From positions 62,001 through 126,000 of IMG/VR virus record IMGVR_UViG_3300023202_000247: 64,000 bases of DNA. One strand, written 5' to 3'. Below the pieces are notes generated by a model, which ran no database searches, was not told where the DNA came from, and worked only from the letters and a program-made list of their open reading frames with translations. The stretch's first letter is position 1, and every line of letters starts with the position of its first letter. The position numbers were made by a program, and so were the translations under genes. Below, one piece after another: positions 7,305 through 62,286 of the stretch. Source of the stretch: a virus.

Positions 7305-7525
7305 AAAATGAAAAGATTAAACTCGGGCTGATCAAGCTGTTTCAGAAAGTTCTTGACAACAAGACTGATGATGTGCTACCATTGTTGAATAGTGTTGCAT
7401 CCGTAAAAGATGTATTGGACTGGTCAGCTCGCACAGTTGGTTACAAAGATGTTGACGAGTATGTAAAAGAACATGGCAAAGATGGTCTGGTTGCGATGTT
7501 GGAGTACAAACTAAAGGGTGAGTGA
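7301..7525 (+). CDS. Hypothetical protein, 74 aa
   Basis: A small helical protein (KIKLGLIKLFQKVLDNKTDD...) whose TGA overlaps the ATG of the TnpB-like gene (TGATG), so the two are probably co-translated. Function unknown. Confidence 0.6.
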   Translation: MKNEKIKLGLIKLFQKVLDNKTDDVLPLLNSVASVKDVLDWSARTVGYKDVDEYVKEHGKDGLVAMLEYKLKGE

Positions 7526-9003
7526 TGTCTGAAAAGCCTGAACCCATTGAAACCAAAGAAGAGAAAAGGAAGAAGAGTCGCAAGCGTCAAAAGAAAGTTA
7601 CCGACACTTCGCGCAAGAAGGCTAAGATTAAAAACATTGCCAGAGTAATAAAGATTGAACTGGCAAAGCCAATCGATAGTGTATTTCACTCCAAATCTAC
7701 TCCTGTCAGTTGGGACGAGGTTGGTCCCGAACTACGTCGACAGCGGAGCATCATGCACCGGCTTCTTAATTCAGCTGTAACCGAATGTGAATTGGCTCAG
7801 CGCGGTAACATCGATAAGCCCATTCAAACTGTTGTGTATCATGCTGTTAAAAAAGAGTTTAACAGTTTTGTAGAGTGGACGAGCAATCATAAGAATAAAG
7901 AAATTCGCGACAGGTATGAAGGCTTCGCATTGCCTGGCGGAACGTTTGCTGCTGTTAGTGGAATTGCTTATAAGCAATGGTCTACATGGAAGAAGGATAA
8001 GACTGGCAGTTCCAGTCTCCCGTCCTTTCGCAAGGGTGCGCCCATCTTCATTCGCAAACAAGAATGCGAGCTTGCCAAGGATGATGATATTGGAATTTAT
8101 CTAAAGCTGAAGTTGTTTCCCAACGGTGCAATTCGTTTTGCAATTCGTCCCAGCCGTGGAGATCATTTCAAAACGATTCGTGAAATCGTCGAATCTGATG
8201 GTTCTTGCTGGCAAGGTGATTGTAAAATCATCTTTGATGAAAACGCAAGGCGAAAGAATGGTGGAAAGGGTAAGTGGTTTGCGTTTCTAACCTACTACAC
8301 TCGCGCTCCTAGTCCCGCGGATGCTGATATGAAAAAGGCTTTGGTGCTCAATCGTGGACACCATTGTTTTCTGTACGCAATGACAACAACTGGTAAGTCA
8401 CACATTATCATGCGCGGCAGTGATGTGCGAGCTTACCGTAAACGTGTCAGTAAGCTTCGAGGTGAGTTTAAGGGTAATTTCTATGAAGCGGGAAGCGGTT
8501 CCCGTGGTCATGGAAAGATGCGTAAGTATCGAGAGTATGCAAAGTTTGGTAACAAAGAATCTAATTTCTTGAAGACCAAAAGTCAACAAGCATGGGCTCG
8601 AGTGGAAGAGATTATGAAGCGGGAAGGCTGTGGCACTGTGATTGTTGAAGATTACAGCGGTGCAGAGACTCGGTTTTTGCAGTGGCCATTGTTCGAATTC
8701 AAAAACCACGGTAAAAATATGTGTGAACGTAATGGTTTCAACATGCAAGAAACCAAAAGGGTCAGTGCTATTGCATGTCCACGCTGTGGTAGTGACGACC
8801 ATAAGAAATATATGAATCGAAATCTCATTTTTCATTGCAATGAATGTGGTTTCGAACGCCCATATGATTTCGTATCCACTTTCAACATGGGGTTGGCCGC
8901 CGGTGCTGACATGGGTTGCTTCCGATTTACCCCGGCAGAAACTAGAACTGATAGAGAAGAAAAAGCAAAGCTCGAAGCTGAAGCCGCGGAGCTAAAGAAA
9001 TGA
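7525..9003 (+). CDS. TnpB/Cas12-like RuvC protein, first catalytic Asp replaced by Asn
   Basis: 492 residues, in the size range of TnpB and compact Cas12f-like nucleases. The C-terminal half shows their layout: a beta strand KWFAFLTYY, RuvC-I position KALVLNRGHH (about 272-280), RuvC-II GTVIVEDYSG with Glu near 375, a zinc finger CPRC...CNEC (about 418-441) and RuvC-III YDFVSTFNMGLAAG with Asp near 448. In active TnpB/Cas12 the RuvC-I motif is [IV]-D-x-G; here it is L-N-R-G, so the first metal-binding Asp is Asn. This predicts loss or strong reduction of cleavage, as in nuclease-dead TnpB-like repressors (TldR). The N-terminal 35 residues are very basic. No transposon ends or adjacent TnpA are visible; the 3' end overlaps the next gene, leaving no room for a 3'-overlapping guide RNA. 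Confidence 0.8.
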   Translation: MSEKPEPIETKEEKRKKSRKRQKKVTDTSRKKAKIKNIARVIKIELAKPIDSVFHSKSTPVSWDEVGPELRRQRSIMHRLLNSAVTECELAQRGNIDKPIQTVVYHAVKKEFNSFVEWTSNHKNKEIRDRYEGFALPGGTFAAVSGIAYKQWSTWKKDKTGSSSLPSFRKGAPIFIRKQECELAKDDDIGIYLKLKLFPNGAIRFAIRPSRGDHFKTIREIVESDGSCWQGDCKIIFDENARRKNGGKGKWFAFLTYYTRAPSPADADMKKALVLNRGHHCFLYAMTTTGKSHIIMRGSDVRAYRKRVSKLRGEFKGNFYEAGSGSRGHGKMRKYREYAKFGNKESNFLKTKSQQAWARVEEIMKREGCGTVIVEDYSGAETRFLQWPLFEFKNHGKNMCERNGFNMQETKRVSAIACPRCGSDDHKKYMNRNLIFHCNECGFERPYDFVSTFNMGLAAGADMGCFRFTPAETRTDREEKAKLEAEAAELKK

Positions 9004-12767: not shown

Positions 12768-13208
12768 ATGGAAAAGCTACGAGTAGAGATTGACTGTCAT
12801 GGTAACAAGATGTATTACAAGTGGGATACGGATGAACTGCATAATCCATATGGTCCAGCTGTTGAAGGTGCAGATGGAGATAAAGAATGGTATCTAAACG
12901 ATAAGCTTCACCGAGAAGATGGCCCTGCTATTGAAGGTGCAGATGGAGATAAAGAATGGTATCTAAACGATAAGCTTCACAGAGAAGATGGTCCAGCAGT
13001 TGAATATGCATATGGACATAAAGAGTGGTATGTAAACGGTAAACGTCATCGTGAGGGTGGTCCTGCTGTTGAACATGCAGATGGATATAAAGAATGGTAT
13101 GTAAATGGTACCAAACTGACAGAAGAAGAGTTCAACAGTCGTCACTCATTTTGTACCAGCAAGATTGTAGAGATTGACGGAAAACGTTACAAGCTAGAAG
13201 AAGTTTGA
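12768..13208 (+). CDS. MORN-like repeat protein, copy 3
   Basis: 146 residues, full family layout with four repeat units, two of them identical (EGADGDKEWYLNDKLHREDG), showing within-gene unit duplication. Preceded by GAAGAGGTTTAAAC like the other copies; the tail DGKRYKLEEV is intact. Confidence 0.8.
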   Translation: MEKLRVEIDCHGNKMYYKWDTDELHNPYGPAVEGADGDKEWYLNDKLHREDGPAIEGADGDKEWYLNDKLHREDGPAVEYAYGHKEWYVNGKRHREGGPAVEHADGYKEWYVNGTKLTEEEFNSRHSFCTSKIVEIDGKRYKLEEV

Positions 13209-13211
13209 AAG

Positions 13212-13652
13212 ATGGAAAAGCTAAGATTAGAGATTGACTGTGATGGTACAAAAAAGTATTACAAGTGGGATACGGATGAGTATCATAATCCATATGGTCC
13301 AGCTATTGAATATGCAAATGGATATAAAGAGTGGCGGGTAAACGGTAAACGTCATCGTGAAGATGGCCCTGCTATTGAAGGTGTAAATGGAACTAAATTT
13401 TGGTATCTAAACGGTAAACGTCATCGTGAAGATGGTCCAGCAATTGAATTTGTAAATGGATCTAGAGAATGGTGGGTAAACGGTAAACGTCATCGTGAAG
13501 ATGGTCCAGCTTTTGAACATGCAGATGGATATAAAGAATGGTGGATAAATGATACCAAACTTACAGAGGCAGAGTTCAACAATCGTCACTCATCTTGTAC
13601 CGGAAAGATTGTTAAGATTGACGGAAAACGTTACAAGCTAGAAGAAGTTTGA
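13212..13652 (+). CDS. MORN-like repeat protein, copy 4
   Basis: 146 residues, intact cap, four repeat units and tail. The intergenic gap is only GAAAG after the TGA, so the AGAAGAAG in the preceding gene's tail codons doubles as the ribosome site. This couples expression along the array. Confidence 0.8.
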   Translation: MEKLRLEIDCDGTKKYYKWDTDEYHNPYGPAIEYANGYKEWRVNGKRHREDGPAIEGVNGTKFWYLNGKRHREDGPAIEFVNGSREWWVNGKRHREDGPAFEHADGYKEWWINDTKLTEAEFNNRHSSCTGKIVKIDGKRYKLEEV

Positions 13653-13655
13653 AAG

Positions 13656-14096
13656 ATGGAAAAGCTAAGATTAGAGATTGACCATCATGGTACAAAAAAA
13701 TATTACAAGTGGGATACGAATGAACTGCATAATCCATATGGTCCAGCTGTTGAATATGCAAATGGATATAAAGCTTGGTGGATAAACGGTAAACGTCATC
13801 GTGAAGATGGCCCTGCTATTGAAAGTGTAAATGGAACTAAATTTTGGTATCTAAACAATAAGCGTCATCGTGAAGATGGTCCAGCTATTGAACATGCAGA
13901 TGGACATAAATCTTGGTATCTAAACGATAAACTTCATCGTGAAGATGGTCCAGCTTTTGAACATGCAGATGGATATAAAGAATGGTATGTAAATGGTACC
14001 AAACTGACAGAAGAAGAGTTCAACAGTCGTCACTCATCTTGTACCAGCAAGATTGTGGAGATTGACGGAAAACGTTACAAGCTAGAAGAAGTTTGA
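13656..14096 (+). CDS. MORN-like repeat protein, copy 5
   Basis: 146 residues, intact. It shares long identical DNA blocks with copies 4 and 6 but mixes unit types (EYANGYK, ESVNGTK, EHADGHK, EHADGYK). This is consistent with recombination between neighbours rather than simple divergence. Confidence 0.8.
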   Translation: MEKLRLEIDHHGTKKYYKWDTNELHNPYGPAVEYANGYKAWWINGKRHREDGPAIESVNGTKFWYLNNKRHREDGPAIEHADGHKSWYLNDKLHREDGPAFEHADGYKEWYVNGTKLTEEEFNSRHSSCTSKIVEIDGKRYKLEEV

Positions 14097-14099
14097 AAG

Positions 14100-14498
14100 A
14101 TGGAAAAGCTAAGATTAGAGATTGACTGTGATGGTACAAAAAAGTATTACAAGTGGGATACGTATGAACTGCATAATCCATATGGTCCAGCTATTGAATA
14201 TGCAGATGGAGATAAATTTTGGTATGAATTTGCAGATGGAGATAAAGCTTGGTATCTAAACGGCAAACGTCATCGTGAGGATGGCCCAGCTTTTAAATAT
14301 GCAAATGGACATAAAGAATGGTATGTAAATGGTAAACTTCATCGTGAAGATGGTCCAGCTATTGAATATGCAGATGGAGATAAAGCTTGGTGGATAAATG
14401 ATACCAAACTTACAGAGGAAGAATTCAATAGTCGTCACTCTTGTGCTGGTAAAGTTGTGGAGATTGATGGAAAACGTTACAAACTAGAAGAAGTTTGA
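14100..14498 (+). CDS. MORN-like repeat protein, copy 6 (shortened)
   Basis: 132 residues. One unit is internally truncated (EYADGDKFWYEFADGDKAWY), showing an in-frame deletion between two similar unit halves. Cap and tail are otherwise intact. Confidence 0.78.
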   Translation: MEKLRLEIDCDGTKKYYKWDTYELHNPYGPAIEYADGDKFWYEFADGDKAWYLNGKRHREDGPAFKYANGHKEWYVNGKLHREDGPAIEYADGDKAWWINDTKLTEEEFNSRHSCAGKVVEIDGKRYKLEEV

Positions 14499-14501
14499 AA
14501 T

Positions 14502-14979
14502 ATGGAAAAGCTAAGATTAGAGATTGACTGTGATGGTACAAAAAAGTATTACAAGTGGGATACGTGTGAATTGCATAATACATATGGTCCAGCTGTTGAA
14601 TATGCAGATGGAGATAAATCTTGGTATGTAAACAATAAGCTTCACAGAGAAGATGGTCCAGCTGTTGAAGATGCAGATGGATATAAATTTTGGTATCTAA
14701 ACAGCAAGCTTCATCGTGAGGATGGTCCAGCTGTTGAAGGTGCAAATGGAGATAAAGTTTGGTATGTAAACGGCAAGCTTCATCGGGAAGATGGCCCTGC
14801 TATTGAAGATGCAGATGGAGATAAATTTTGGTCCTGCTGTTGAATTGGAAGATGGAACTAAAGAATGGTATGTAAATGGTACCAAACTGACAGAAGAAGG
14901 GTTTAACAATCGTTACTCATCTTGTACCAGCAAGATTGTAGAGATTGATGGAAAACGTTACAAGCTAGAAGAAGTTTGA
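14502..14979 (+). pseudogene. MORN-like repeat gene, copy 7, frameshifted
   Basis: The frame from 14502 runs through the cap and about four units, then meets a stop at 14843 after a unit-to-unit deletion (GDKFWSCC). The remaining unit and tail (ELEDGTKEWYVNGTKL...DGKRYKLEEV, to 14979) continue in another frame. It is either a broken copy or makes a shortened protein. Confidence 0.75.
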
Positions 14980-20401: not shown

Positions 20402-21181
20402 ATGTCAGCACAAAAACTACATCTCAATCAAATTCTGGCAATCGAAAAAGGCCAGCGCACCAAGAACAAGCAAGACATTACCAAGGTTTATCAGCGTCTC
20501 GAAAAGAATGCGCTGCTGAATGGTATCATCGAGGACTATCGGCCAAAGGCTGAAGATGAAGAAGCCATTCACAAAGAGAATCCGATACAGCTGACCGTGT
20601 GGCAAGCTTTGTCTGATGCCAAGGCTGACTGGGTTGATTCATTTGATATCGTGGCTGCCAGAGATTGGACGAATACTCAGGCAAAAGCCGATGTCATTCT
20701 AGATGCGGATTCTACAAATCCGGTAACTCTTCTAAAAAATGTTCCGGTGAGTTTTCTTCTTTACTTCGAGAAGCAGCTCGACGATGTTTACACACTTGTC
20801 AAGAATCTTCCTACCCTTCCAACGGATGAGAAGTGGGAGTGGAGTAATGAAAGTAATTGCTTCATTTCTGACAAGAGTATAACTGAACGTAAGACTACGC
20901 TCAAGGAACCGCTTGTCAAGTTTGAGGGTAACGACAAGCATCCTCCGCAGGTAGATGTAATTGATGTCCAGAAGGTCATCGGCTATACTACCAAGCGTAA
21001 GCTCAGTGGAGCAATCCCTGCCTCCGAGCGTGAGGAATTGAAACGCCGTGTGCAAAAGCTTCAAGCCGCTGTCAAGCGGGCACGTGAGGCGGCGAACATG
21101 GCAGAGGTAGACCGCCAGAAGGTTGGCGATGCTGTCTTTGGCTATTTGTTCGAAGGCATGGAAAACTACCACGGCAAGTAA
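20402..21181 (+). CDS. DUF7873-like conserved protein
   Basis: 259 residues. The pattern LNQILAIEKGQRTKNKQDIT near the N-terminus, a middle VPVSFLLYFEKQLDDVYTLV and a C-terminal AVKRAREAANMAEVDRQKVG...VFGYLF matches my recollection of a widely distributed bacterial and phage protein family of unknown function (DUF7873). The C-terminal third is a long charged helix. It has its own promoter and a downstream CATGGG/CCCATG hairpin, so it is monocistronic, suggesting a dosage-regulated product. Confidence 0.7.
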   Translation: MSAQKLHLNQILAIEKGQRTKNKQDITKVYQRLEKNALLNGIIEDYRPKAEDEEAIHKENPIQLTVWQALSDAKADWVDSFDIVAARDWTNTQAKADVILDADSTNPVTLLKNVPVSFLLYFEKQLDDVYTLVKNLPTLPTDEKWEWSNESNCFISDKSITERKTTLKEPLVKFEGNDKHPPQVDVIDVQKVIGYTTKRKLSGAIPASEREELKRRVQKLQAAVKRAREAANMAEVDRQKVGDAVFGYLFEGMENYHGK

Positions 21182-21206: not shown

Positions 21207-21241
21207 GACGAGCACAAGCTCATTAATCAAAAACAAAAACA

Positions 21242-21334
21242 GAGTTCTTCAGTCGAAGTGTAGGTTCGAACCCTACCCTGCCCACATGGGGGCAGGTAGC
21301 CCAACTGGCAGAGGCATCTGGAGAAAGTAAACTC
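21242..21334 (+). tRNA. Circularly permuted tRNA-like gene 1 (3' half before 5' half)
   Basis: The 3' half comes first. It has TTCAG (21248-21252), a variable region, T-arm GTAGG-TTCGAAC-CCTAC (21260-21276), acceptor strand CCTGCCC (21277-21283) and discriminator A (21284). Five bases later the 5' half begins: GGGCAGG (21290-21296) is fully complementary to CCTGCCC, then TA at positions 8-9, a D-arm GCC-CAACTGGCAGA-GGC (21299-21315), and CTGGA (21318-21322), which can pair with TTCAG. Outside this, GAGTT/AACTC extends the helix. Position 26 and the variable region are longer than usual and no clean 7-nt anticodon loop can be assigned, so decoding identity is unknown. CCA is not encoded. Acceptor, T and D elements agreeing in permuted order are unlikely by chance. 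Confidence 0.7.
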
Positions 21335-21392
21335 AATCTTCGTCAAAGTATTGCTCGAAGATAACTGATGCTGGAGGAATGTGTAATCAAAC

Positions 21393-21527
21393 CGTGTAGA
21401 ACGATATTGTCGAAATGTCCATTCGACTTGGACCCTTCACACCGACATACTTGTTATGTCTTTAGTTCTCTTTTTACGTGAAGGTAGTGTAACGGAAACA
21501 CGCGACACTTGAAACTGATTCTACATG
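21393..21527 (+). tRNA. Circularly permuted tRNA-like gene 2 (3' half before 5' half)
   Basis: The 3' half has TGTCG (21408-21412), variable AAAT, T-arm GTCCA-TTCGACT-TGGAC (21417-21433), CCTTCAC (21434-21440) and A73 (21441). After 36 nt the 5' half has GTGAAGG (21478-21484, all seven pairs with CCTTCAC), TA, D-arm GTGT-AACGGAA-ACAC (21487-21501), G26, then CGACA (21503-21507) pairing perfectly with TGTCG. All four tRNA helices therefore form. Beyond the anticodon stem, CGTGTAGAA (21393-21401) pairs with TTCTACATG (21519-21527). The mature loop must combine CTTGAAA... with ...CGATAT; depending on the join it could read GAT, TGT or TAT, so identity is open. The short variable loop rules out Ser/Leu/Tyr class II. 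CCA is not encoded. Confidence 0.78.
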
Positions 21528-21589
21528 TTAAACGCTCCGTACACATTCTAAAGACCCCTGTCGGCACAGTGTCTGGCGGGACTAGTACT

Positions 21590-21629
21590 AGGCCCGGGAT
21601 GCGGTGAAATTCCCGGGCCTTCTTTTTTT
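21590..21629 (+). terminator. Rho-independent terminator of the tRNA-like locus
   Basis: AGGCCCGGGA (21590-21599) pairs perfectly with TCCCGGGCCT (21611-21620) and is followed by TCTTTTTTT. It closes a noncoding transcript of about 400 nt. The 60 nt before it hold a further AGAC...GTCT hairpin of unknown role. Confidence 0.9.
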
Positions 21630-21650
21630 CACATACACACGTGTACATAC

Positions 21651-22271
21651 ATGGATAAAAAACTAAATACATTACAAGTAGTCTTGCATGATTACTTGCG
21701 CCATCCTCACAGAGACATTCGTGATATTCTAAAAGAACGATGTCATGATGATGAAGAACTGAAATATATTAGTGAGCAAATATATTTTGCAGCTAACAGA
21801 GCATTCAATTTATATGGATCTTTCAATGATTGGATATCGTCACTCGAATGTGATTCCACTCAAATAGTTTCAGCTTTGAGAGAAGTTATAGATGTCCGTA
21901 GATTGAGTCTCATACTAGATAAGACATGTAATAGTAAAAAATGCTATAAAGAGGCGGAACGATTTATAGTTGAAGCTCATTATGGTTGGCCTGAGCGTTG
22001 GAGCTTGCGCTCACAATATCTAGCTGAGATAGTTCTTGGTAGAAAAAGTAATGGTGCAAATGGTTTATCGATTGACTGGAGTTTCAACGATAAAGAAGAA
22101 GCTAAAAGAGCTGTAGACAAATTGATCGCAGTGGGTTTTTATGCAACTTGTGGTGATTATGGTTTATCGCCACCAAAGGCTGCTTCGGATGCAGCGAATG
22201 AAGCTATGTCCGTTGCTTATAAAAATATGATAAATGGTGATTTAGATCACCTGTTCCCAAAATCAAATTAA
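21651..22271 (+). CDS. Hypothetical protein, 206 aa
   Basis: A helical, charged protein with a central CDSTQIVSALREVIDVRRL stretch. The C-terminus has GFYATCGDYGLSPPKAASDAANEA. No domain recognised. It follows the terminator of the tRNA-like locus, so it needs its own promoter; none was clear. Confidence 0.62.
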   Translation: MDKKLNTLQVVLHDYLRHPHRDIRDILKERCHDDEELKYISEQIYFAANRAFNLYGSFNDWISSLECDSTQIVSALREVIDVRRLSLILDKTCNSKKCYKEAERFIVEAHYGWPERWSLRSQYLAEIVLGRKSNGANGLSIDWSFNDKEEAKRAVDKLIAVGFYATCGDYGLSPPKAASDAANEAMSVAYKNMINGDLDHLFPKSN

Positions 22272-25245: not shown

Positions 25246-25318
25246 GGGCCATTAGCTCAGCGGTTAGAGCATTCGCCTCATAAGCGACTGGTCGTAGGTT
25301 CGAATCCTACATGGCCCA
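25246..25318 (+). tRNA. tRNA with CAU anticodon, probably tRNA-Ile2 (lysidine type)
   Basis: A 73-nt conventional cloverleaf: acceptor GGGCCAT/ATGGCCC plus A73, D-arm GCTC-AGCGGTTA-GAGC, anticodon loop CTCATAA with CAT at 25279-25281, T-arm GTAGG-TTCGAAT-CCTAC. The 27-43 pair is T/C mismatched. CCA is not encoded. The D-loop GGTTAGAGCA and variable region TGGTC resemble E. coli tRNA-Ile2 (CAU) more than elongator Met. A TilS homologue at 34121 would be needed to convert C34 to lysidine, which supports the Ile reading; tRNA-Met remains possible. Confidence 0.85.
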
Positions 25319-35274: not shown

Positions 35275-35615
35275 GCTTTGAAAAGTTTTTCACAGCATTC
35301 AAGGACTATCTGAATAGCAAAGGTACATGTGATAGTGGAGACTTTCCCATCAAACAATACAAAGAAGAGATGCGTATTGCTCTTAATGATATAATTGATG
35401 AGCGTATCAAGCTAGATAAACACAAACCACCTCGCAAAAGCAGCATGACTACCGTCATGCCTTCTCAGCGACCGATGGAAAGTGATAGCGTCGACATGCT
35501 CGACGCGCTAAACTGTGCCCCTATACCACCGGCCAACCCGTCTAACTATTCTCAGTGGATGGAAGCGTACACGAAATGGTACTATTCCAAAAGGAACAAA
35601 GTAATTAAACGATGA
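35271..35615 (+). CDS. Hypothetical protein, tandem paralogue 2
   Basis: 114 residues. Same frame of features as its neighbour: MSFEKFFTAFKDYLNSK at the start and ALNCAPIPP...WMEAYTKWYYSKRNK at the end, with a diverged middle. Stop overlaps the CCA-enzyme ATG. Confidence 0.62.
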   Translation: MSFEKFFTAFKDYLNSKGTCDSGDFPIKQYKEEMRIALNDIIDERIKLDKHKPPRKSSMTTVMPSQRPMESDSVDMLDALNCAPIPPANPSNYSQWMEAYTKWYYSKRNKVIKR

Positions 35616-37126
35616 AACAAATATCTCTCAGTAAGAAAGAGGAGATGCTTTGCAATTTGTTGATGGATGTTGTATTGGAGAAGGCTCCGGGTACAACGTT
35701 ACGTATTGCTGGTGGTTGGACCAGGGATAAATTGCTTGGTTCTACCACCAATGATATTGATATCTCCATTGATACCATGACGGGTGAGAAGTTTGCTCAT
35801 ATGGTTACTGAGTACATGGATGATAAAGATATCAAACATGGCAACATATCCGTCATCAAATCAAATCCAGACCAAAGCAAGCATCTAGAAACCGCAATGC
35901 TTAAAATCTATGGAATGGATATAGATTTTGTTAACCTTCGTAAAGAAACATATGCTGACTCTAGAATACCATCTATTGAGATAGGTACACCAGAAGAAGA
36001 TGCCAAACGTCGTGATTTAACTATCAATGCATTGTTTTATAATATAAACGATGACAAAGTTGAGGATTTTGTTGGCGGTCTAAAAGACTTGGACGATTAT
36101 AATCTCAGAACACCTATCGATGCTAAGCAAACTTTCTTAGATGACCCTCTGAGAATGCTTCGTATCATTCGTTTTGCTGCTAGATATAAATATGATGCAG
36201 ATGATTCCATCATCGAGGCAGCGAATAAGGATGATGTTAAGTGGGCTTTCTTGAATAAAGTAAGCAAAGAAAGGATGTGGACTGAAATTGCCGGGCAAGA
36301 GAAGCCTGATGGGTGGAAAAACGGTATCTTGAATGAAAAATATGCCATCCACGGTATCGAATTGCTCAACAAAATGGGTTTGCGAGACCTATTGTTCTGG
36401 TTTTCTCCGGAAGAAAAGAAATTATTGGGTCTAGATAAGGATTTGGTTAGTTTTGATTCGGATCAAAATAATCCTAATCATGATTTAACCATTTGGGATC
36501 ATACATGTAAAGTTATTGATAACCTAGAGTATTTTCGTCACTTATCTTCAAGAGAAGATGAGTTGGTTTTGACGTTATCAGCACTATTACATGACATAGG
36601 TAAGTGTGATTTGTGTTCCAGACAAGAAACTGATGAAGGTTATTACACTTATCATGGTCATGAAGACTCTTCTGCTAAGATGACAGAGTACTTTCTCAAC
36701 AAAATGAAAGCTCCTGTGCACATTACAAAGCGTGTTGTGCGTTTGGTTGCAGAGCACATGCGTCTTCACAACCTTCCCGATGATGCTTCTGATAAAGCAT
36801 TGCGTCGTTTCATGCGAGACCTCGAATCGGACTGGGAAATGTCCGTTGATTTGGCCTTGGCCGATGCAATGGGAAAGAATAACCCTCCGTTTGGAACGCC
36901 GGATCGCTACCTCAACTTTAAAAACAGAATGAAAAATCTCAAGGCTGAGATGGGAAACAAGACTGCGCCGAGTCGTCCAATTTCTGGCCATGATTTGATG
37001 AGTCTTGGCATTCCAGCTGGTCCACAAATGGGTAAGTTACTCAAACAACTCGATGAAGAGTTGCTAGAAAACCCAACTATGTCAAAAGATGAAGCTATCA
37101 ACTTTGTCAAAAGTTTGAATGTGTGA
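35612..37126 (+). CDS. cca: CCA tRNA nucleotidyltransferase with HD domain
   Basis: 504 residues. The class II nucleotidyltransferase head is clear: LRIAGGWTRDKLLGSTTNDIDIS (G-G-x-x-R and D-x-D), RRDLTINALFYN, DDPLRMLRIIRFAARY (the B/C motifs). A C-terminal HD phosphohydrolase domain follows (DHTCKVIDNL, LSALLHDIGKCD, HGHEDSSAKM, VAEHMRLHN), as in E. coli-type enzymes. It adds or repairs CCA 3' ends; none of the three tRNA genes here encodes CCA, so it would be needed for their maturation. Confidence 0.93.
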   Translation: MKQISLSKKEEMLCNLLMDVVLEKAPGTTLRIAGGWTRDKLLGSTTNDIDISIDTMTGEKFAHMVTEYMDDKDIKHGNISVIKSNPDQSKHLETAMLKIYGMDIDFVNLRKETYADSRIPSIEIGTPEEDAKRRDLTINALFYNINDDKVEDFVGGLKDLDDYNLRTPIDAKQTFLDDPLRMLRIIRFAARYKYDADDSIIEAANKDDVKWAFLNKVSKERMWTEIAGQEKPDGWKNGILNEKYAIHGIELLNKMGLRDLLFWFSPEEKKLLGLDKDLVSFDSDQNNPNHDLTIWDHTCKVIDNLEYFRHLSSREDELVLTLSALLHDIGKCDLCSRQETDEGYYTYHGHEDSSAKMTEYFLNKMKAPVHITKRVVRLVAEHMRLHNLPDDASDKALRRFMRDLESDWEMSVDLALADAMGKNNPPFGTPDRYLNFKNRMKNLKAEMGNKTAPSRPISGHDLMSLGIPAGPQMGKLLKQLDEELLENPTMSKDEAINFVKSLNV

Positions 37127-38595: not shown

Positions 38596-39011
38596 GTCTT
38601 CTAGATATATTAAAGAAAGAAAAGCTTTCTGCGATGAAAGCAAAGGACACTGTCCGGCGTGACATTCTAAGTCTCGTTATCGGTCAAGCTCAACAACAAA
38701 ATGTTTCGGATGATGCGGCGCTTCATGGTATCATCAAGAAACTAATCAAGAGCAATGATGAAACTTATGAAAGTGCGCGCGATGACATGCGAGATCAGCT
38801 GAAGGAAGAAAACAATATTCTTCAATTCTTTTTGCCAAAAGAAATGTCTCGTGATGAGATAATAAAGTTTATCGATGACAATGTTGACATTGCATCAGCT
38901 CAATCTGATGGCCAAGCAATTGGTCAGGTTATGAAAGCAATCAAGAATCAGAGCACCCCAGTAAACGGAAATCTAGTTAAAGAAATCGTAAACGAGAAAC
39001 GTAACAAATGA
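38592..39011 (+). CDS. YqeY/GatB-tail-domain protein
   Basis: 139 residues from a GTG start. LLDILKKEKLSAMKAKDTVRRDILSLV and the end GQAIGQVMKAIKNQSTPVNGNLVKEIVNE match the YqeY family, which is homologous to the tRNA-binding tail of GatB. It may bind tRNA or a tRNA-amidotransferase, another tRNA-linked function. Confidence 0.82.
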   Translation: MSLLDILKKEKLSAMKAKDTVRRDILSLVIGQAQQQNVSDDAALHGIIKKLIKSNDETYESARDDMRDQLKEENNILQFFLPKEMSRDEIIKFIDDNVDIASAQSDGQAIGQVMKAIKNQSTPVNGNLVKEIVNEKRNK

Positions 39012-42000
39012 CAGAATCAATCTTTGACCAAGTACTGGCAAACCAAAAATCAATAAGCAGAATTGATAACGATCCTCAAATTTTTTATGCTCTCATCGGG
39101 CTCATGCGCAAGCAAGATCCAAAGCAGTATGAGGAAAAGTTTGGTGAACTTAGAAACACCTTAGAAGAATATCTCGTCACAATCGAGAGGGATTACGAAA
39201 TCCTGGCAAACGCTGAGCGCAGTTTGTTCGAGGAAATTCGTAAAACCACAAAACGTCGCAATCCTTTTGACGGGTTGCAAGAGCAACAAGACGATCTATA
39301 TGATCGCTTCTTCGACACGCTCGCGCCCAACTTCATTCGTGTACAAAAGCAAGTTCTGCTTCAAATACGAGATTACTTTCGTACCTTGGTAAAAGTTGTG
39401 GCTGATTTGCAGCCACGAACTTTGATGATTGCTGAAGATGCTAAGGTAGATTTTTCATCCACCGATTCCATCAACAAAATGATGGGTGAGATGAATCTAA
39501 ATAAAGGTCATGTTCGGGACTGGGTGAACTCCGTCATCCATCTAGACAAAGCTGAAGAAGCTCTTGCTCAAACAGCTGACAATGTTGTTGGTTATGTTGA
39601 AACATATTATACGTTTCTGATGAATCGACACAATTCAGAAGGTGTCGCCATTCATCGCGATCCCATCGTTACAGATTTGGCACTTCTAATCTATCAAAAC
39701 ATCGATGCCCATGGTGAGATTGATGGTGGTAAGGATCCTGAAGAGTTGAGCGCATATTCCATGCGTAAAGCTGAGATAATTGTTGATGCAATTTCTCAAG
39801 GATTTGTTTGGGACTTTATAAAAAATCCAGATAGCTTTACCGCTTTCATTCGTGAAGCATTTGAAGGTGCAAGCAAAAAAGTTAAAGCCTTGATGTCTCT
39901 TTATCGTACAGAGATAGATAACCTTAATGCCATCGTTAACTGGAAAGGTCTCAGCTTTGGTGGTTCGGATGCAGCAGAGCGACGACTAAATCGTCATCTA
40001 GATTTTCTAGGAGATGTCGATCCCAACTCGATTCGTGAACAAGAAGATACAAAGCTTCTTTCAAAAGAAGAGCGCTACAACCGCGAGTTCAAAAACAAAA
40101 CGATTGCTCACATTGTTGAGCTTCTTACACACGAGAAGCCACAGATGCGAGAGATCATCGATTATGTTCTCGCACGAAAGAAAGAACTGCGTGTATTCTT
40201 CCACGAAGAAAACAGCTTTTACGTTTGCAGAATTGGACAGGGCAATCCATTTCTCGGGACAGCCCCGGGTGCATTAGAGGTAATCCCAGGCACTCGTCCT
40301 ACCGCAAGCATGGACGACATTATCGGAAGTGGCTTTGCAGAGATTAAAGAGTTTGTTGGCCACATTGAAGATGCTGGTAAATGGCATGATTTGTTTCTTG
40401 CAACAAGTCCAAGTAAAACAACTGATAAAAGTAATGTATTACTTGTTGGACCGATGGGATGTTTAGCTGGAGAAACATATATTCAATTTGAAGTCTACGA
40501 TGAAGAAGGGAAAAGAGTCAATCACAAAGGTGGAACAATAGAGCGTTTGTATCAACGCTTCCATGATTTGCTACAAACTCACGGTAGTCATCCTCAAAAT
40601 AACAACGGCACTTTTTGTGTATCATCTGTTAATGATGAGGATCGTATCTTAATTAACAAGATAGAGGACGTTGTTAAAACTGGTGAGAATGAATGCTATG
40701 AACTTACAACTGCCAGTGGTGACTCTATTATTGCAACAGCTGATCATCCATTTTTCAATGGTGAAAAATATATCGAACTTCAAAATTTGAAAGAGGGTGA
40801 TTTTGTCACACTGCATAGAAATAAAAAGTACACGGGTGATGCTCCTATTGATAAAAATAAGAGATCCAATGATAGAAAATATTTGTATGTCAAGAATCAC
40901 CCAATAGCTGAAAAAAAGATTGTTAATGGCAAATATGAATATTACAGACTTGTGCGCGCAAGAGCTGTAATGGAAGCTCATATTAATAACTTGTCTCTTG
41001 ATCAATATGTTTCTATGTTGAACGATGGGGAAGTTAATGGTCTTTCTTTCTTAGAAAGAAACCAACATGTTCATCATATTGATGAGAACATACTAAATGA
41101 TGAGCTTAACAATCTTGTTATCATAGATAGAGCGGAGCATAATAGTAAACATGCACGCGAACATCAAAACAATCTCAGGTTTGAGATTGTTAGAGATAAA
41201 ATTGTATCAATAAAATCTGTTGGAAAAAGAACAACTTATGACATAAAAATGTCTAAGCCTTATCATAATTATGTTGCAAATAATTTTGTTGTGCATAATT
41301 GTGGAAAGAGCGAAATGCTCAGAGCTGTTGGTTGTGATAAAAATAGTCTCGGCATTTACGCACAAGGTTCGGATTTTCTTACTTGCTGGAAAGGCGAGGC
41401 AGAAAAGAATCCCAAGCGCTTGTTCGAATCCGCTGTCAAGCTGCAACGTGAGAGCAAAAAACATGTTCACATTCTAATTGATGAGATTGACTCTGTGCTC
41501 TTGAAACCAGAGTTCATGAGCTATGGAGACTCTAATTTGTCTTTGGAATTTCAAATGATAATGGATGGTGTGGTTCATTATCCTCACCTTAGTGTGTGGG
41601 GCACGACCAACCATCCCGAGCGAATTCCGATGCCGATGATTCGAAGATTCTCAAAGGTACTCATCGTTGGCGAATTGAGCGTTGATGATCGAGAGACGCT
41701 GCTCAAAACCTTTATTGGTAGTAACCTACCCATTGCTACCGTGAAGGCAGGAGAGTGGAAGATGCTTAGCTCCAAGCTCGAAGGTGCAACTGGTGATATC
41801 GTTCGTAAGGTTGCCGATCATCTATGGCGTACAAAGATGAGTTGGTTCGTTGCGAATCACGAAAAAGATGCAGAAAAGCTCGTCGAGTTCCTTAATCGTG
41901 ATGGTCAATTTGAAATTGACACGTTTACCAAAGAAGAGCGCGGAGAATTCAAGACGAAACTTTCAGATTTCTTCGAGGTAACGGCAGATGATATCAATGC

Positions 42001-42118
42001 AGCCATCGATGTTCACTTGAGAAACCCGGCAATCAATGCGGAAATTGAAGTTGCACAAGAAACTTACGCGCAAGCTCGTGAGTTCCTTAACCAATTGGAC
42101 GCTGGCAAAATGGAATAA
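39008..42118 (+). CDS. AAA+ ATPase interrupted by an intein in its P-loop
   Basis: 1036 codons. Residues 1-484 are a helical region of unknown function. The ATPase module begins NVLLVGPMG and continues, after the intein (485-764), as CGKSEML, so the spliced Walker A is GPMGCGKS. Walker B is HVHILIDEIDSV (about 815-826), followed by SVWGTTNHPERI (sensor 1) and MIRRFSKVLIVGEL with an Arg-finger-like RR. The layout is FtsH/katanin-class AAA. The mature protein would be 756 aa. No protease active site is seen, so remodelling or unfolding of phage or host proteins is more likely. Confidence 0.88.
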   Translation: MTESIFDQVLANQKSISRIDNDPQIFYALIGLMRKQDPKQYEEKFGELRNTLEEYLVTIERDYEILANAERSLFEEIRKTTKRRNPFDGLQEQQDDLYDRFFDTLAPNFIRVQKQVLLQIRDYFRTLVKVVADLQPRTLMIAEDAKVDFSSTDSINKMMGEMNLNKGHVRDWVNSVIHLDKAEEALAQTADNVVGYVETYYTFLMNRHNSEGVAIHRDPIVTDLALLIYQNIDAHGEIDGGKDPEELSAYSMRKAEIIVDAISQGFVWDFIKNPDSFTAFIREAFEGASKKVKALMSLYRTEIDNLNAIVNWKGLSFGGSDAAERRLNRHLDFLGDVDPNSIREQEDTKLLSKEERYNREFKNKTIAHIVELLTHEKPQMREIIDYVLARKKELRVFFHEENSFYVCRIGQGNPFLGTAPGALEVIPGTRPTASMDDIIGSGFAEIKEFVGHIEDAGKWHDLFLATSPSKTTDKSNVLLVGPMGCLAGETYIQFEVYDEEGKRVNHKGGTIERLYQRFHDLLQTHGSHPQNNNGTFCVSSVNDEDRILINKIEDVVKTGENECYELTTASGDSIIATADHPFFNGEKYIELQNLKEGDFVTLHRNKKYTGDAPIDKNKRSNDRKYLYVKNHPIAEKKIVNGKYEYYRLVRARAVMEAHINNLSLDQYVSMLNDGEVNGLSFLERNQHVHHIDENILNDELNNLVIIDRAEHNSKHAREHQNNLRFEIVRDKIVSIKSVGKRTTYDIKMSKPYHNYVANNFVVHNCGKSEMLRAVGCDKNSLGIYAQGSDFLTCWKGEAEKNPKRLFESAVKLQRESKKHVHILIDEIDSVLLKPEFMSYGDSNLSLEFQMIMDGVVHYPHLSVWGTTNHPERIPMPMIRRFSKVLIVGELSVDDRETLLKTFIGSNLPIATVKAGEWKMLSSKLEGATGDIVRKVADHLWRTKMSWFVANHEKDAEKLVEFLNRDGQFEIDTFTKEERGEFKTKLSDFFEVTADDINAAIDVHLRNPAINAEIEVAQETYAQAREFLNQLDAGKME
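40460..41299 (+). other. Intein with HNH endonuclease, in the AAA+ P-loop
   Basis: 280 residues from Cys (CLAGETYIQFEV) to a terminal VVHN followed by the +1 Cys of CGKS, the standard class 1 splice junctions. Block B appears as ELTTASGDSIIATADHPFF (T-x-x-H-like), blocks F/G as TYDIKMSKPYHNYVANNFVVHN. In the middle, HHIDENILNDELNNLVIIDR and AEHNSKH form an HNH homing endonuclease. Confidence 0.88.
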
Positions 42119-55146: not shown

Positions 55147-57549
55147 ATGTCATTTAAATATCAAGTTACTAAAATCAGCGATAATCATTATGTATTGGAA
55201 AAGATGAAAGATATGAAATGCGATGTACATGCATATCTTTCAGAAAAGCTATATAATCTCTCAGAAGAGGGATTGTGGACTCAAGCATATAATTCTGCAT
55301 CACACGAAGGTGTAAAGGGTGTGTACCTAATGCCTGACTGTTTGTCTGATGATACTGAGGTTTTAACGCCGCAAGGATTTACAAAAATATCAGAATTGTC
55401 TTCAGATACAAAAATTGCAAATGTTATAATCACGGATAAGGGTGCTCAAGGGGTTTATTGGAAAGAGCCAAAAGTAATTATACATAGAGAATTAAGAGAA
55501 AATGAAAGGGTTTTCTCACACACTTTTCAAAGATTAAACAAAAGTATTTTAACAACAGAAGGGCATAGGCACCCTTTTACTGTTAATGAATGTACAACTG
55601 ATATTATCAGCAAAGAAATGCCTAAAGAAGCCTTCGTTAAAAATTTTATTTGGTATGGAAATGATTCTGAAACTCGTCAGCGTATAAAACTTACAGATGA
55701 TGAAATAAAACTTATTACATGGATTGTTGGCGATGGAAATATAACACATAATAAAAATAACGCTAATAAAAGAATTAGGTTTGGGTTCAAAAAAATTAGA
55801 AAAATTCAGCGAGTAACTTTTCTTCTTAATGAAATTGGTCTAAATTATACTGTTTGTAAGTCTGACAAACAAACTGAAATTTATATAAACACAAGCTCTA
55901 GTCAAAAATTTATTGATATTGTTGGAGATAATAAAGAATATCCAAAGAATTGGATATCTGATTTGAATCAGAATCAAGCATCTATGATGATAGATGAAAT
56001 GCTAATGATAGATGGAGACTGGGAAAATCATAATAAAATGGGCAGTAGTGTCATATATACATCTAGAAAAACTGATGCTGATTTTATCAGCAGCGTTGTT
56101 TCTAAGTATATTGGGTGTGCAAACATTAAGTTTGATGAAAAAAGATATGATAATGGATGCTGGAAGATATCTATAATTAAAGGTGAAAATCTGCAAAAGT
56201 CATCTAAAAATGGTTTACATAATACTAAAGTTATAACCAATGTATCTAGCTATACAGGAAAGGTTGTTTGCATTACCTGCGACTCTGGGTATTTTATAGC
56301 TCGTCAAAATGGACTTACGTTTGTAACTGGTAATTGCCACCTCGGCTATGGCATTCCAGTTGGTGGTGTTGTTGTTACAGATGACGTTATCATTCAGGCT
56401 GGATCTGGATATGATATCTCGTGCGGTGTAGTGTATATGAAAGTTCCGAAGTTGCATGCTTCGGACATTGCAAGTTGGCAAAAGCGAGAGAGCTGGGTGC
56501 GTGAAGTATCCAAGCGTATTGCTTTGGGCGTTGGCTCTCATCGTCCGAGTAAGATGAAAGAGTTTCAATCTAAAGATACTCATGAAATCTTGCGTCACGG
56601 AGCAAAGGCAATCGGAATCAATTCTGACTTTTGTGAGCGACAGTTCATTCCGATTCGTGGCAACATCGACTTTGAAAAGATTGAAAAGGCTTGGGGCAAA
56701 GCTACTGGTCAGCTTGGATCGGTTGGTGGTGGCAATCATTTCGTAGAAATGCAAGTCGATGAAAATGATGGAAGTGTTTGGGTAATGATCCATTGCGGTT
56801 CTCGTGGTTATGGTTGGCAAACAGCTAATCATTTCTTTTACGAGGGCGCAAAGCATCGTGGCCTTCCCATGAATAGAAGAGAGTCCAGTTGGCTTCGTAT
56901 CGACGAGGATCTTGGCAAAGAATATTGGGCTTACCATAACAGTGCTGCAAACTATGCGGTGGCTAATCGTCACATCATCGTAGAGGGCATTCAGGAAGCT
57001 TTGCGCAAGGTTTGGAAAACTGAAGGCGAGCTTTACTACGAAATCAGTCACAACCTCGTTCAAGAGGAAACGTTGGTATTACCTGATGGTTCGCATACCA
57101 AAGGTTTCGTTCATCGTAAAGGAGCGACGAGAGCTTTTCCAGCTGGGCATCCCGATCTCATCGGAACCAAGTGGGAGAAGACTGGTCATCCATGTCTAAT
57201 TCCGGGCAGTATGTATGACGGAGCTGCAATCCTTTTTCCATTGGAAGGTGCTTATCAAACCGCGTGCTCAGTGAATCATGGTTCAGGTCGCCTCATGGCT
57301 AGAGGTCAGGCAAAGAAAAAGCTAAAGCCCAAGCAGCAGTTTATCGATGACCAGATGCGCACAGTGAAGCGTAAGCTGGGCGGCATCGAAGTCAGAGGTA
57401 TCGTAGGTAATACCAAGAAAACTCCACTTGATGAATGCGGTCACGTTTACAAGAATTTGGATGATGTGCTTGGAGTTCTAGAAGACGAAGGTATTGCAAA
57501 GGTAAAGCATAGACTGTACCCAGTTGCAAACCTAAAGGGTACCGACTGA
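55147..57549 (+). CDS. rtcB: RtcB RNA ligase interrupted by an intein
   Basis: 800 codons; removing the intein (residues 65-396) leaves 468 residues, normal for RtcB. The exteins join as MPD-CHLGYGIPVGG, the conserved metal-binding Cys/His site, then GSGYDISCGVVY, GGGNHFVEMQ, MIHCGSRGYG, YYEISHNLVQEE, VHRKGATRAFPAG, LIPGSMYDGAAI and NHGSGRLMARG, with the guanylated His in the NHGSGR motif. RtcB uses GTP and Mn2+ to join 2',3'-cyclic-phosphate or 3'-phosphate ends to 5'-OH ends, as in archaeal/animal tRNA splicing and bacterial RNA repair. The gene stands alone between a terminator-like hairpin and the next promoter. Confidence 0.96.
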   Translation: MSFKYQVTKISDNHYVLEKMKDMKCDVHAYLSEKLYNLSEEGLWTQAYNSASHEGVKGVYLMPDCLSDDTEVLTPQGFTKISELSSDTKIANVIITDKGAQGVYWKEPKVIIHRELRENERVFSHTFQRLNKSILTTEGHRHPFTVNECTTDIISKEMPKEAFVKNFIWYGNDSETRQRIKLTDDEIKLITWIVGDGNITHNKNNANKRIRFGFKKIRKIQRVTFLLNEIGLNYTVCKSDKQTEIYINTSSSQKFIDIVGDNKEYPKNWISDLNQNQASMMIDEMLMIDGDWENHNKMGSSVIYTSRKTDADFISSVVSKYIGCANIKFDEKRYDNGCWKISIIKGENLQKSSKNGLHNTKVITNVSSYTGKVVCITCDSGYFIARQNGLTFVTGNCHLGYGIPVGGVVVTDDVIIQAGSGYDISCGVVYMKVPKLHASDIASWQKRESWVREVSKRIALGVGSHRPSKMKEFQSKDTHEILRHGAKAIGINSDFCERQFIPIRGNIDFEKIEKAWGKATGQLGSVGGGNHFVEMQVDENDGSVWVMIHCGSRGYGWQTANHFFYEGAKHRGLPMNRRESSWLRIDEDLGKEYWAYHNSAANYAVANRHIIVEGIQEALRKVWKTEGELYYEISHNLVQEETLVLPDGSHTKGFVHRKGATRAFPAGHPDLIGTKWEKTGHPCLIPGSMYDGAAILFPLEGAYQTACSVNHGSGRLMARGQAKKKLKPKQQFIDDQMRTVKRKLGGIEVRGIVGNTKKTPLDECGHVYKNLDDVLGVLEDEGIAKVKHRLYPVANLKGTD
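55339..56334 (+). other. Intein with LAGLIDADG-type endonuclease, at the RtcB metal-binding Cys
   Basis: 332 residues from CLSDDTEVLTPQGF to FVTGN, followed by the extein +1 Cys. Block B is LTTEGHRHPF; the C-terminal region is VVCITCDSGYFIARQNGLTF, then VTGN. Two dodecapeptide-like motifs, LITWIVGDGN and MIDEMLMIDGDW, mark a LAGLIDADG homing endonuclease. The insertion point, right before the catalytic Cys, is the kind of site inteins use in archaeal RtcB. Confidence 0.9.
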
Positions 57550-61992: not shown

Positions 61993-62286
61993 ATGTCAAA
62001 AAACACCAAGCTCTACGTGATATTTTTTTTAAAGTCACTCGGCTTGATTATTTTAATCCTAAGCCCGTTTCTTTCGTTTTGGCTAACCAACCTCGGGCCA
62101 GAGGTTGAAAGTGAAATATTCATTGACGTAGGCTGCCTTTTCATCATTGGAGGTCTTCTCTTTCGCACGGGTGACGGTTTGAGTGACGAAAAACACAACC
62201 AAGACATTTTGAATCCAGCATTTTGGTTCGTACTTGCATCTGTTTGCATTGCAACCATTTTAGCATTTCACTACTTTTTGATTTAA
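61993..62286 (+). CDS. Three-helix membrane protein, 97 aa
   Basis: Hydrophobic segments at about 8-30 (LYVIFFLKSLGLIILILSPF), 42-57 (IDVGCLFIIGGLLF) and 75-95 (AFWFVLASVCIATILAFHYF). A small polytopic membrane protein; a holin-like role is possible but unsupported. Confidence 0.6.
   Translation: MSKNTKLYVIFFLKSLGLIILILSPFLSFWLTNLGPEVESEIFIDVGCLFIIGGLLFRTGDGLSDEKHNQDILNPAFWFVLASVCIATILAFHYFLI

Follow-up and report, generated by a model that had tools for sequence, protein, structure and literature searches.

Two permuted tRNA-like RNAs are encoded in tandem in a noncoding stretch of a phage genome, and this observation is confirmed. We consider both modules to be stable tRNA mimics that work like the bacterial YrlA-type Y RNAs, and we put the probability of this reading at roughly 60%. 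They are said to work like YrlA, and not to be members of that family, because module 2 has no recognisable Ro60 site and carries a long A-CC loop. The label that suits them best is that of Y-RNA-like tRNA mimics of a divergent type, shared in part with two related phages (G002 and G003). During infection, such RNAs may act as decoys for tRNA nucleases or as adaptors in RNA repair.

The Locus and Its Two Modules

The phage record under study (G000) is called a jumbo-phage record; it comprises 321,461 bp and is classed as linear, with matches to phage families for its terminase, portal and DNA polymerase. The window, i.e., the whole stretch of DNA that was analysed, covers positions 62001–126000 of the record (64,000 nucleotides), and its features are given below in window coordinates, all on the plus strand. 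The noncoding stretch that holds both modules lies between a DUF7873 gene (20402–21181) and an open reading frame starting at 21651. At its 3' end, the sequence and the fold reveal a GC-rich hairpin followed by a T run (AGGCCCGGGA...TTCCCGGGCCT and then the T run, 21590–21629). This is a likely intrinsic terminator, and it was absent from a terminator scan restricted to loops of 3–8 nt. The two modules occupy 21240–21320 and 21376–21549. In each of them, the order is T arm, 3' acceptor strand, linker, 5' acceptor strand and D arm. The permuted tRNA-like topology and the tandem arrangement, both described in an earlier note on this DNA, were borne out by a strict scan and by the sequence, in which every stem named in that note is present.

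The strict scan demanded perfect T and acceptor stems, T8 and a GG-bearing D arm. Exactly two matches were found in the 321 kb, namely module 1 and module 2, and none were found in 20 Markov-shuffled copies of genome pieces. The z-scores of the folds were -4.2 for the region of module 1, -1.5 for that of module 2 and -3.4 for the whole locus. When the modules were checked with a covariance model that allowed the permuted topology, module 1 reached 45.8 bits and module 2 scored poorly (17.7 bits). Such a generic permuted-tRNA model is a weak discriminator, since tandem ordinary tRNAs were also matched by it and module 2 scored poorly. Neither module was called by ARAGORN, or by Rfam at the gathering threshold, and the sole tRNA called in the record is a tRNA-Met at 25246.

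In module 1, the T arm (GTAGG-TTCGAAC-CCTAC, 21260–21276), the 3' acceptor strand (CCTGCCC, 21277–21283) and the 5' acceptor strand (GGGCAGG, 21290–21296) are supported by the sequence, the strict scan and the covariance model. A linker of 6 nt, ACATGG (21284–21289), closes the acceptor stem. A Leu-like D arm with a 3-bp stem follows (GCC-CAACTGGCAGA-GGC, 21299–21315; sequence and strict scan). The sequence also contains an anticodon-like stem, formed by TCTG (5' strand, 21317–21320) and CAGA (3' strand, 21240–21243), which has only 4 bp and a G31.A39 mismatch. A class-II-type variable arm (CTTC-AGTC-GAAG, 21247–21258) can be added to the earlier description. The basal stem of this module is weak (duplex p = 0.81 against shuffles). 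Extra helices had been claimed beyond the anticodon stem of both modules, and in general, such stalk helices are present. The P2 helix of module 2 (CGTGTAGAA/TTCTACATG) is real, whereas the GAGTT/AACTC helix of module 1 is doubtful, as it clashes with the variable arm.

Module 2 is the more complete of the two in its stems, all four of which proved perfect on checking the sequence, just as had been claimed. Its T arm (GTCCA-TTCGACT-TGGAC, 21417–21433), 3' acceptor strand (CCTTCAC, 21434–21440) and 5' acceptor strand (GTGAAGG, 21478–21484) were identified by the sequence, the strict scan and the covariance model, and its D arm (GTGT-AACGGAA-ACAC, 21487–21501) by the sequence and the strict scan. 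The anticodon-like stem pairs CGACA (5' strand, 21503–21507) with TGTCG (3' strand, 21408–21412). The acceptor loop of 37 nt (21441–21477) consists of ACC, the hairpin GACATA-CTTGT-TATGTC and an unpaired tail. A stalk is built from the 9-bp stem P2 (5' strand CGTGTAGAA, 21393–21401; 3' strand TTCTACATG, 21519–21527; both from folds) and the 10-bp basal stem P1, and its duplex differs from shuffles (p = 0.023). The outer stem P1, a further addition to the earlier description, joins GGAATGTGTA (5' strand, 21376–21385; minimum free energy folds) to TACACATTCT (3' strand, 21540–21549; folds) and arises in an unconstrained fold. Between P1 and P2 lie a 5' internal loop, ATCAAAC (21386–21392), and a 3' internal loop, TTAAACGCTCCG (21528–21539). 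The word ATCAAA of the 5' internal loop recurs in module 1 and in the G002/G003 pair. Altogether, module 2 folds as P1-loop-P2-loop-P3, which matches the layout in the alignment of the YrlA model.

Comparison with YrlA-Type Y RNAs

In YrlA, the structure of which is available as PDB 6CU1, a stem joins the 5' and 3' ends, and the D, T and acceptor arms mimic a tRNA (PMC8394870). YrlA tethers Rsr to PNPase, and in some cases an RNA-repair operon encodes it alongside RtcB (PMC8394870; PMC7790460). A decoy role has been proposed for its tRNA-like domain in Salmonella (PMC7790460). TROVE proteins have already been noted in a survey of jumbo phages, and the cellular TROVE protein works with a tRNA-like partner (PMC7824862). 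Given the published shape of YrlA, this survey and the Ro60-linked phage modules described below, permuted tRNA-like modules of phages have a known counterpart. The statement in the earlier note that no established phage case was known had overlooked the Y-RNA-like modules of phages.

In both modules, as in YrlA (Rfam RF02553), the acceptor is closed, and the D, T and acceptor arms are tRNA-like but permuted in their order. They further resemble it in occurring as tandem copies, in the presence of RtcB in the genome and in the long stalk that runs from the RNA ends, which is clear in module 2. Unlike YrlA, they come with no Ro60 gene that could be found, the Ro60 motif is missing or partial, and the Rfam scores stay well below the threshold. 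Module 2 also differs in its 37-nt A-CC loop and module 1 in its class-II variable arm. With the RF02553 model, for which the gathering score is 69 bits, module 1 received 20.3 bits and module 2 no score, and tandem ordinary tRNAs received 24.9 bits. The Ro60-binding motif, which we take to have the consensus GNCGAAN(0-1)G within a stem, is absent from module 2, and the best candidate in module 1 is GACGAG...TTCGTC.

Pfam, a protein search and a custom HMM revealed no Ro60 in the phage record itself, a linear sequence of 321 kb that is possibly a fragment, and none in G002. The HMM was built from 11 sequences, and its best E value in these two genomes was approximately 2. Among the controls, the Ro60 of G008 was recovered at 1.8e-219 and three left-out phage proteins at 1e-33 to 1e-105. 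Another control, L390, was missed, and the longest frame taken there was not the annotated gene. Since neither a Ro60 gene, nor an Rfam score at the threshold, nor the full Ro60 motif was found, the modules are not filed as members of the YrlA family.

If the modules are indeed YrlA-like mimics, the T, D and acceptor arms would adopt the elbow-and-acceptor shape of a tRNA, and the loop that closes the acceptor stem would leave no free tRNA 3' end. The stalk would take the place of the anticodon arm and extend to where the 5' and 3' termini pair; in module 2, it would comprise, in order, the anticodon-like stem, an internal loop, P2, a second internal loop and P1. This stalk may be bound by a protein, i.e., by a Ro60 of the host, by one encoded outside the record or by some other protein, and the tRNA-like head may attract tRNA-binding enzymes. 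The RNA could then serve as an adaptor or decoy in the handling of cleaved tRNAs beside the RtcB and CCA-adding enzyme of the phage. Two genes in the window encode these possible partners, namely an RtcB RNA ligase (55147–57549; Pfam RtcB, 2.7e-84) and a protein of the CCA-adding enzyme/poly(A)-polymerase family (35612–37126; Pfam PolyA_pol, 2e-29, with tRNA_NucTran2_2 below its cutoff).

Related Modules in Other Phages

No homologue of the module pair was found by DNA in phages and viral contigs, nor by the two flanking proteins in viral contigs. Relatives were therefore sought via the terminase, which gave 79 loci. The scan covered all or a large part of each of eight genomes or large contigs (G000, G001, G002 and G007 to G011), and modules were present in two of the eight, G000 and G002. 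The G002 pair is common to G003 and lies at L107:1511 and L107:1724, with the P1 stems GCGCACCT/AGGTGCGC and AAGTACATCT/AGGTGTACTT, respectively. These phages are terminase relatives of G000, and their modules share with those of the window the P1-[AUCAAA]-P2 stalk and, with module 2, the A-CC. In both, P2 is short (AACC/GGTT) and ATCAAA adjoins P1, as in module 2; the acceptor is followed by A-CC or A-CCA, and a GCGC hairpin lies inside the acceptor loop. Unlike the modules of the window, each carries a whole anticodon-arm-like hairpin, which in one of them amounts to a complete Leu(AAG) anticodon arm, and the stalk therefore departs from the variable region; there is also no RtcB match.

The acceptor loop opens with A-CC in module 2 and in both G002/G003 modules, whereas all 15 comparison modules lack this feature (p = 0.004). 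The acceptor loops of these three modules are 23–37 nt long versus 4–11 nt in the comparison modules. The A-CC and the loop lengths speak against the mimic reading, as do the whole anticodon-arm-like hairpins of G002/G003. Module 1, with its 6-nt ACATGG lacking A-CC, groups with the short-loop comparison modules. The A-CC loops and the whole anticodon arms of the relatives suggest a continuum between tRNAs and Y RNAs.

Modules of this kind co-occur with Ro60 genes in other phages. Among cultured phages, modules with a closed acceptor were found close to annotated Ro-like genes in the Streptomyces phages Quantum and Blueeyedbeauty, the Microbacterium phage FuzzBuster and the Gordonia phage GMA2. 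As in the window, a tRNA-like head is detected by the same scan and the flanks form a stalk; unlike in the window, these modules are near a Ro60 gene, and their acceptors are closed by only 4–9 nt, including UUCG, GCAA and GUAAAA. In the flanks of approximately 1.5–2.5 kb around the Ro60 genes of Mx1, Phabba, Coruscant, Rabbitrun, another Microbacterium phage, phiLo, G005 and G008, no modules were found. The last two, G005 and G008, are terminase relatives of G000 in which Ro60 genes are present.

Pattern scans yielded further records with modules, G031, G032 and G033. The ATCAAA word in these three is not independent evidence, as it was contained in the search pattern. In G031, a 392 kb jumbo phage (L265 and L302/L374), there are seven modules of differing tRNA identities, one of which adjoins the gene of a Ro60, a TROVE protein of 558 aa. 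Most of them share a 5' GAATGC, the word GACTACA and a 3' CCTGTC, and the GNCGAA motif is present in G031 modules. Their best score with the Rfam YrlA model is 61.7 bits, below the gathering score of 69. The linker of module 1, ACATGG, resembles the ACATGC of the G031 module beside the Ro60 gene. The 3' flank of module 1, AGTAAACTCAATCTTCGTC, has a similar counterpart, AGTAAAAACTCAATTTGTAGTC, in a module of G032, a record that has YrlA-like matches as well as RtcB. A search for additional copies of this 3' motif returned G032 again and a single chance match in coding sequence.

Permuted tRNA Genes and Other Explanations

The earlier note had interpreted the modules as permuted tRNA genes expressed via a circular intermediate. 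In this phage, the stalk would be cut, RtcB would circularise the precursor, RNase P and a 3' nuclease would excise the linker, and the CCA enzyme would complete the product. We regard this route as quite unlikely. The modules do share traits with the permuted tRNA genes known from algae and from Thermofilum (PMC3978253). As in those genes, the 3' half precedes the 5' half, the acceptor strands are complementary according to the strict scan, and the linkers between them (6 and 37 nt) are within the known range of 1–74 nt (PMC3978253). Module 2 has complete cloverleaf arms, its acceptor is followed by A-CC, as are those of the G002/G003 pair, and one member of that pair provides the full Leu(AAG) anticodon arm. 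The encoded RtcB and CCA-adding enzyme fit such a gene and a mimic alike. Algal and archaeal permuted tRNA genes use a BHB motif (PMC3978253), whereas the strict form of this motif was not found at the junctions of either module, and the tRNA-splicing endonuclease family (PF01974) is absent from the genome. Module 1 also lacks a canonical anticodon loop: in the 7-nt register set by TCTG/CAGA and the variable arm, position 33 is G (5' side) or A (3' side) and never U. The junction of module 2 could yield a U33 loop, CTTGAAA. When 2200 joins of each module were ligated virtually, ARAGORN made 30 calls with U33 for module 1 and 48 for module 2. The same procedure gave 36–234 such calls for seven controls that were Ro60-linked or came from genomes with Ro60, so modules of the Y-RNA kind, which the same scan recovers, reconstitute equally well or better. 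G002 has no RtcB match and already possesses ordinary Leu(AAG) and Tyr genes. For these reasons, the circularised precursor is left unsupported.

For the readable cases in G031 and G002, where ordinary counterparts exist, we likewise rejected the proposal that permuted genes supply tRNAs that would otherwise be missing. In G031, the ordinary genes include Trp(CCA) and Ile(GAU), which are the two clearest module identities. RtcB was rejected as a marker of modules because it is missing from G002 and G031; it is present in G000 and G032, and it is common among phages (536 records).

A tRNA-like RNA in two pieces would need no ligase, which fits G002 with its lack of an RtcB match. RNase P and 3' trimming would open the loop, CCA would be added, and the stalk would hold the unligated pieces together, as in two-piece tmRNA. 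Permuted tmRNA genes are known and offer a precedent for two-piece RNAs. In module 2 and the G002/G003 pair, the A-CC precedes a hairpin and an unpaired leader, which agrees with this proposal. The proposal nevertheless seems distinctly improbable: the 6-nt loop of module 1 (ACATGG) has no A-CC, and in the modules of the window, a stalk emerging from the anticodon loop would stand in the way of decoding. Since some traits of chargeable tRNAs are preserved in module 2 and in the G002/G003 pair, we retain a small, but not trivial, probability that G000 and G002/G003 carry genuine tRNAs of either the permuted or the two-piece sort. The P1-AUCAAA-P2 stalk would then hold the halves, RNase P and 3' processing would open the A-CC loop, and the CCA enzyme, together with RtcB where present, would finish a chargeable RNA.

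Decay has to be considered as well, since the pair is without a homologue in phages and viral contigs by DNA and flanking genes, the anticodon-like stem of module 1 is imperfect and the Rfam scores are low. Nonetheless, neither module has lost G18G19 or the perfect pairing of its T and acceptor stems, module 2 possesses P1 and P2 in addition to four perfect arms, and the layout recurs in a related phage, so we give little credence to functionless remnants of decayed or shuffled tRNAs. Phage tRNA introns are often of group I, and these introns, like permuted tmRNA genes, offer a general precedent for a permuted intron-exon element or a permuted tmRNA, to which no tool lends support. Rfam produced no group I intron or tmRNA match at the locus even at relaxed thresholds up to E = 10; both candidates were dropped, and their probability is close to negligible. 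A resemblance of the stalk loops to hammerhead or hairpin ribozymes, noticed by eye, was also dropped as unsupported.

Significance for Phage RNA Biology

If the permuted or two-piece reading were true, we would know of no earlier example of such tRNAs in a viral or bacterial setting, and Y RNAs and permuted tRNAs would be linked as ancestor and derivative. Searches for permuted tRNAs in phages recover Y-RNA-like mimics, which is a trap for annotation; the same search provides a simple finder for RNAs that are mostly missed by standard tRNA finders. Jumbo phages apparently keep tRNA mimics beside RNA-repair enzymes, with up to seven copies per phage and in some cases without a detectable Ro60. 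This raises the question of whether they are decoys, RNA-repair adaptors or tRNA precursors.

Additional Observations

Several other features were noticed in these genomes. In G031, one module can be joined virtually to a canonical tRNA-Trp, and an entire anticodon arm of the Ile(GAU) type is present in another. In G032, the minus strand at L256:6457-6522 gives sub-threshold matches to beta_tmRNA (40 bits) and tmRNA_permuted (27 bits), near Y-RNA-like modules. G002 contains several orphan T arms with Ser-like 3' halves that are not called by ARAGORN (L146:5387-6950); 51 tRNAs are called in this genome, none of them Ser.

In G000, the translation of the RtcB gene (55147–57549) contains an intein-like insert at approximately residues 66–392, between MPDC and CHLGYG, and a Pfam intein domain is also found in the gene of an AAA ATPase (39008–42118). 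A frame of 1235 aa at L017:10040-13747 is ribonucleotide reductase-like, with an endonuclease-like stretch inside. A protein of 493 aa (window 7522–9003) shows a weak match to a Cas12f1-like/TNB domain (1.1e-4, under the Pfam cutoff). Finally, tandem open reading frames of 146, 146, 146, 132 and 113 aa follow one another with near-identical spacing at window positions 12768–14843 and are probably paralogous copies.
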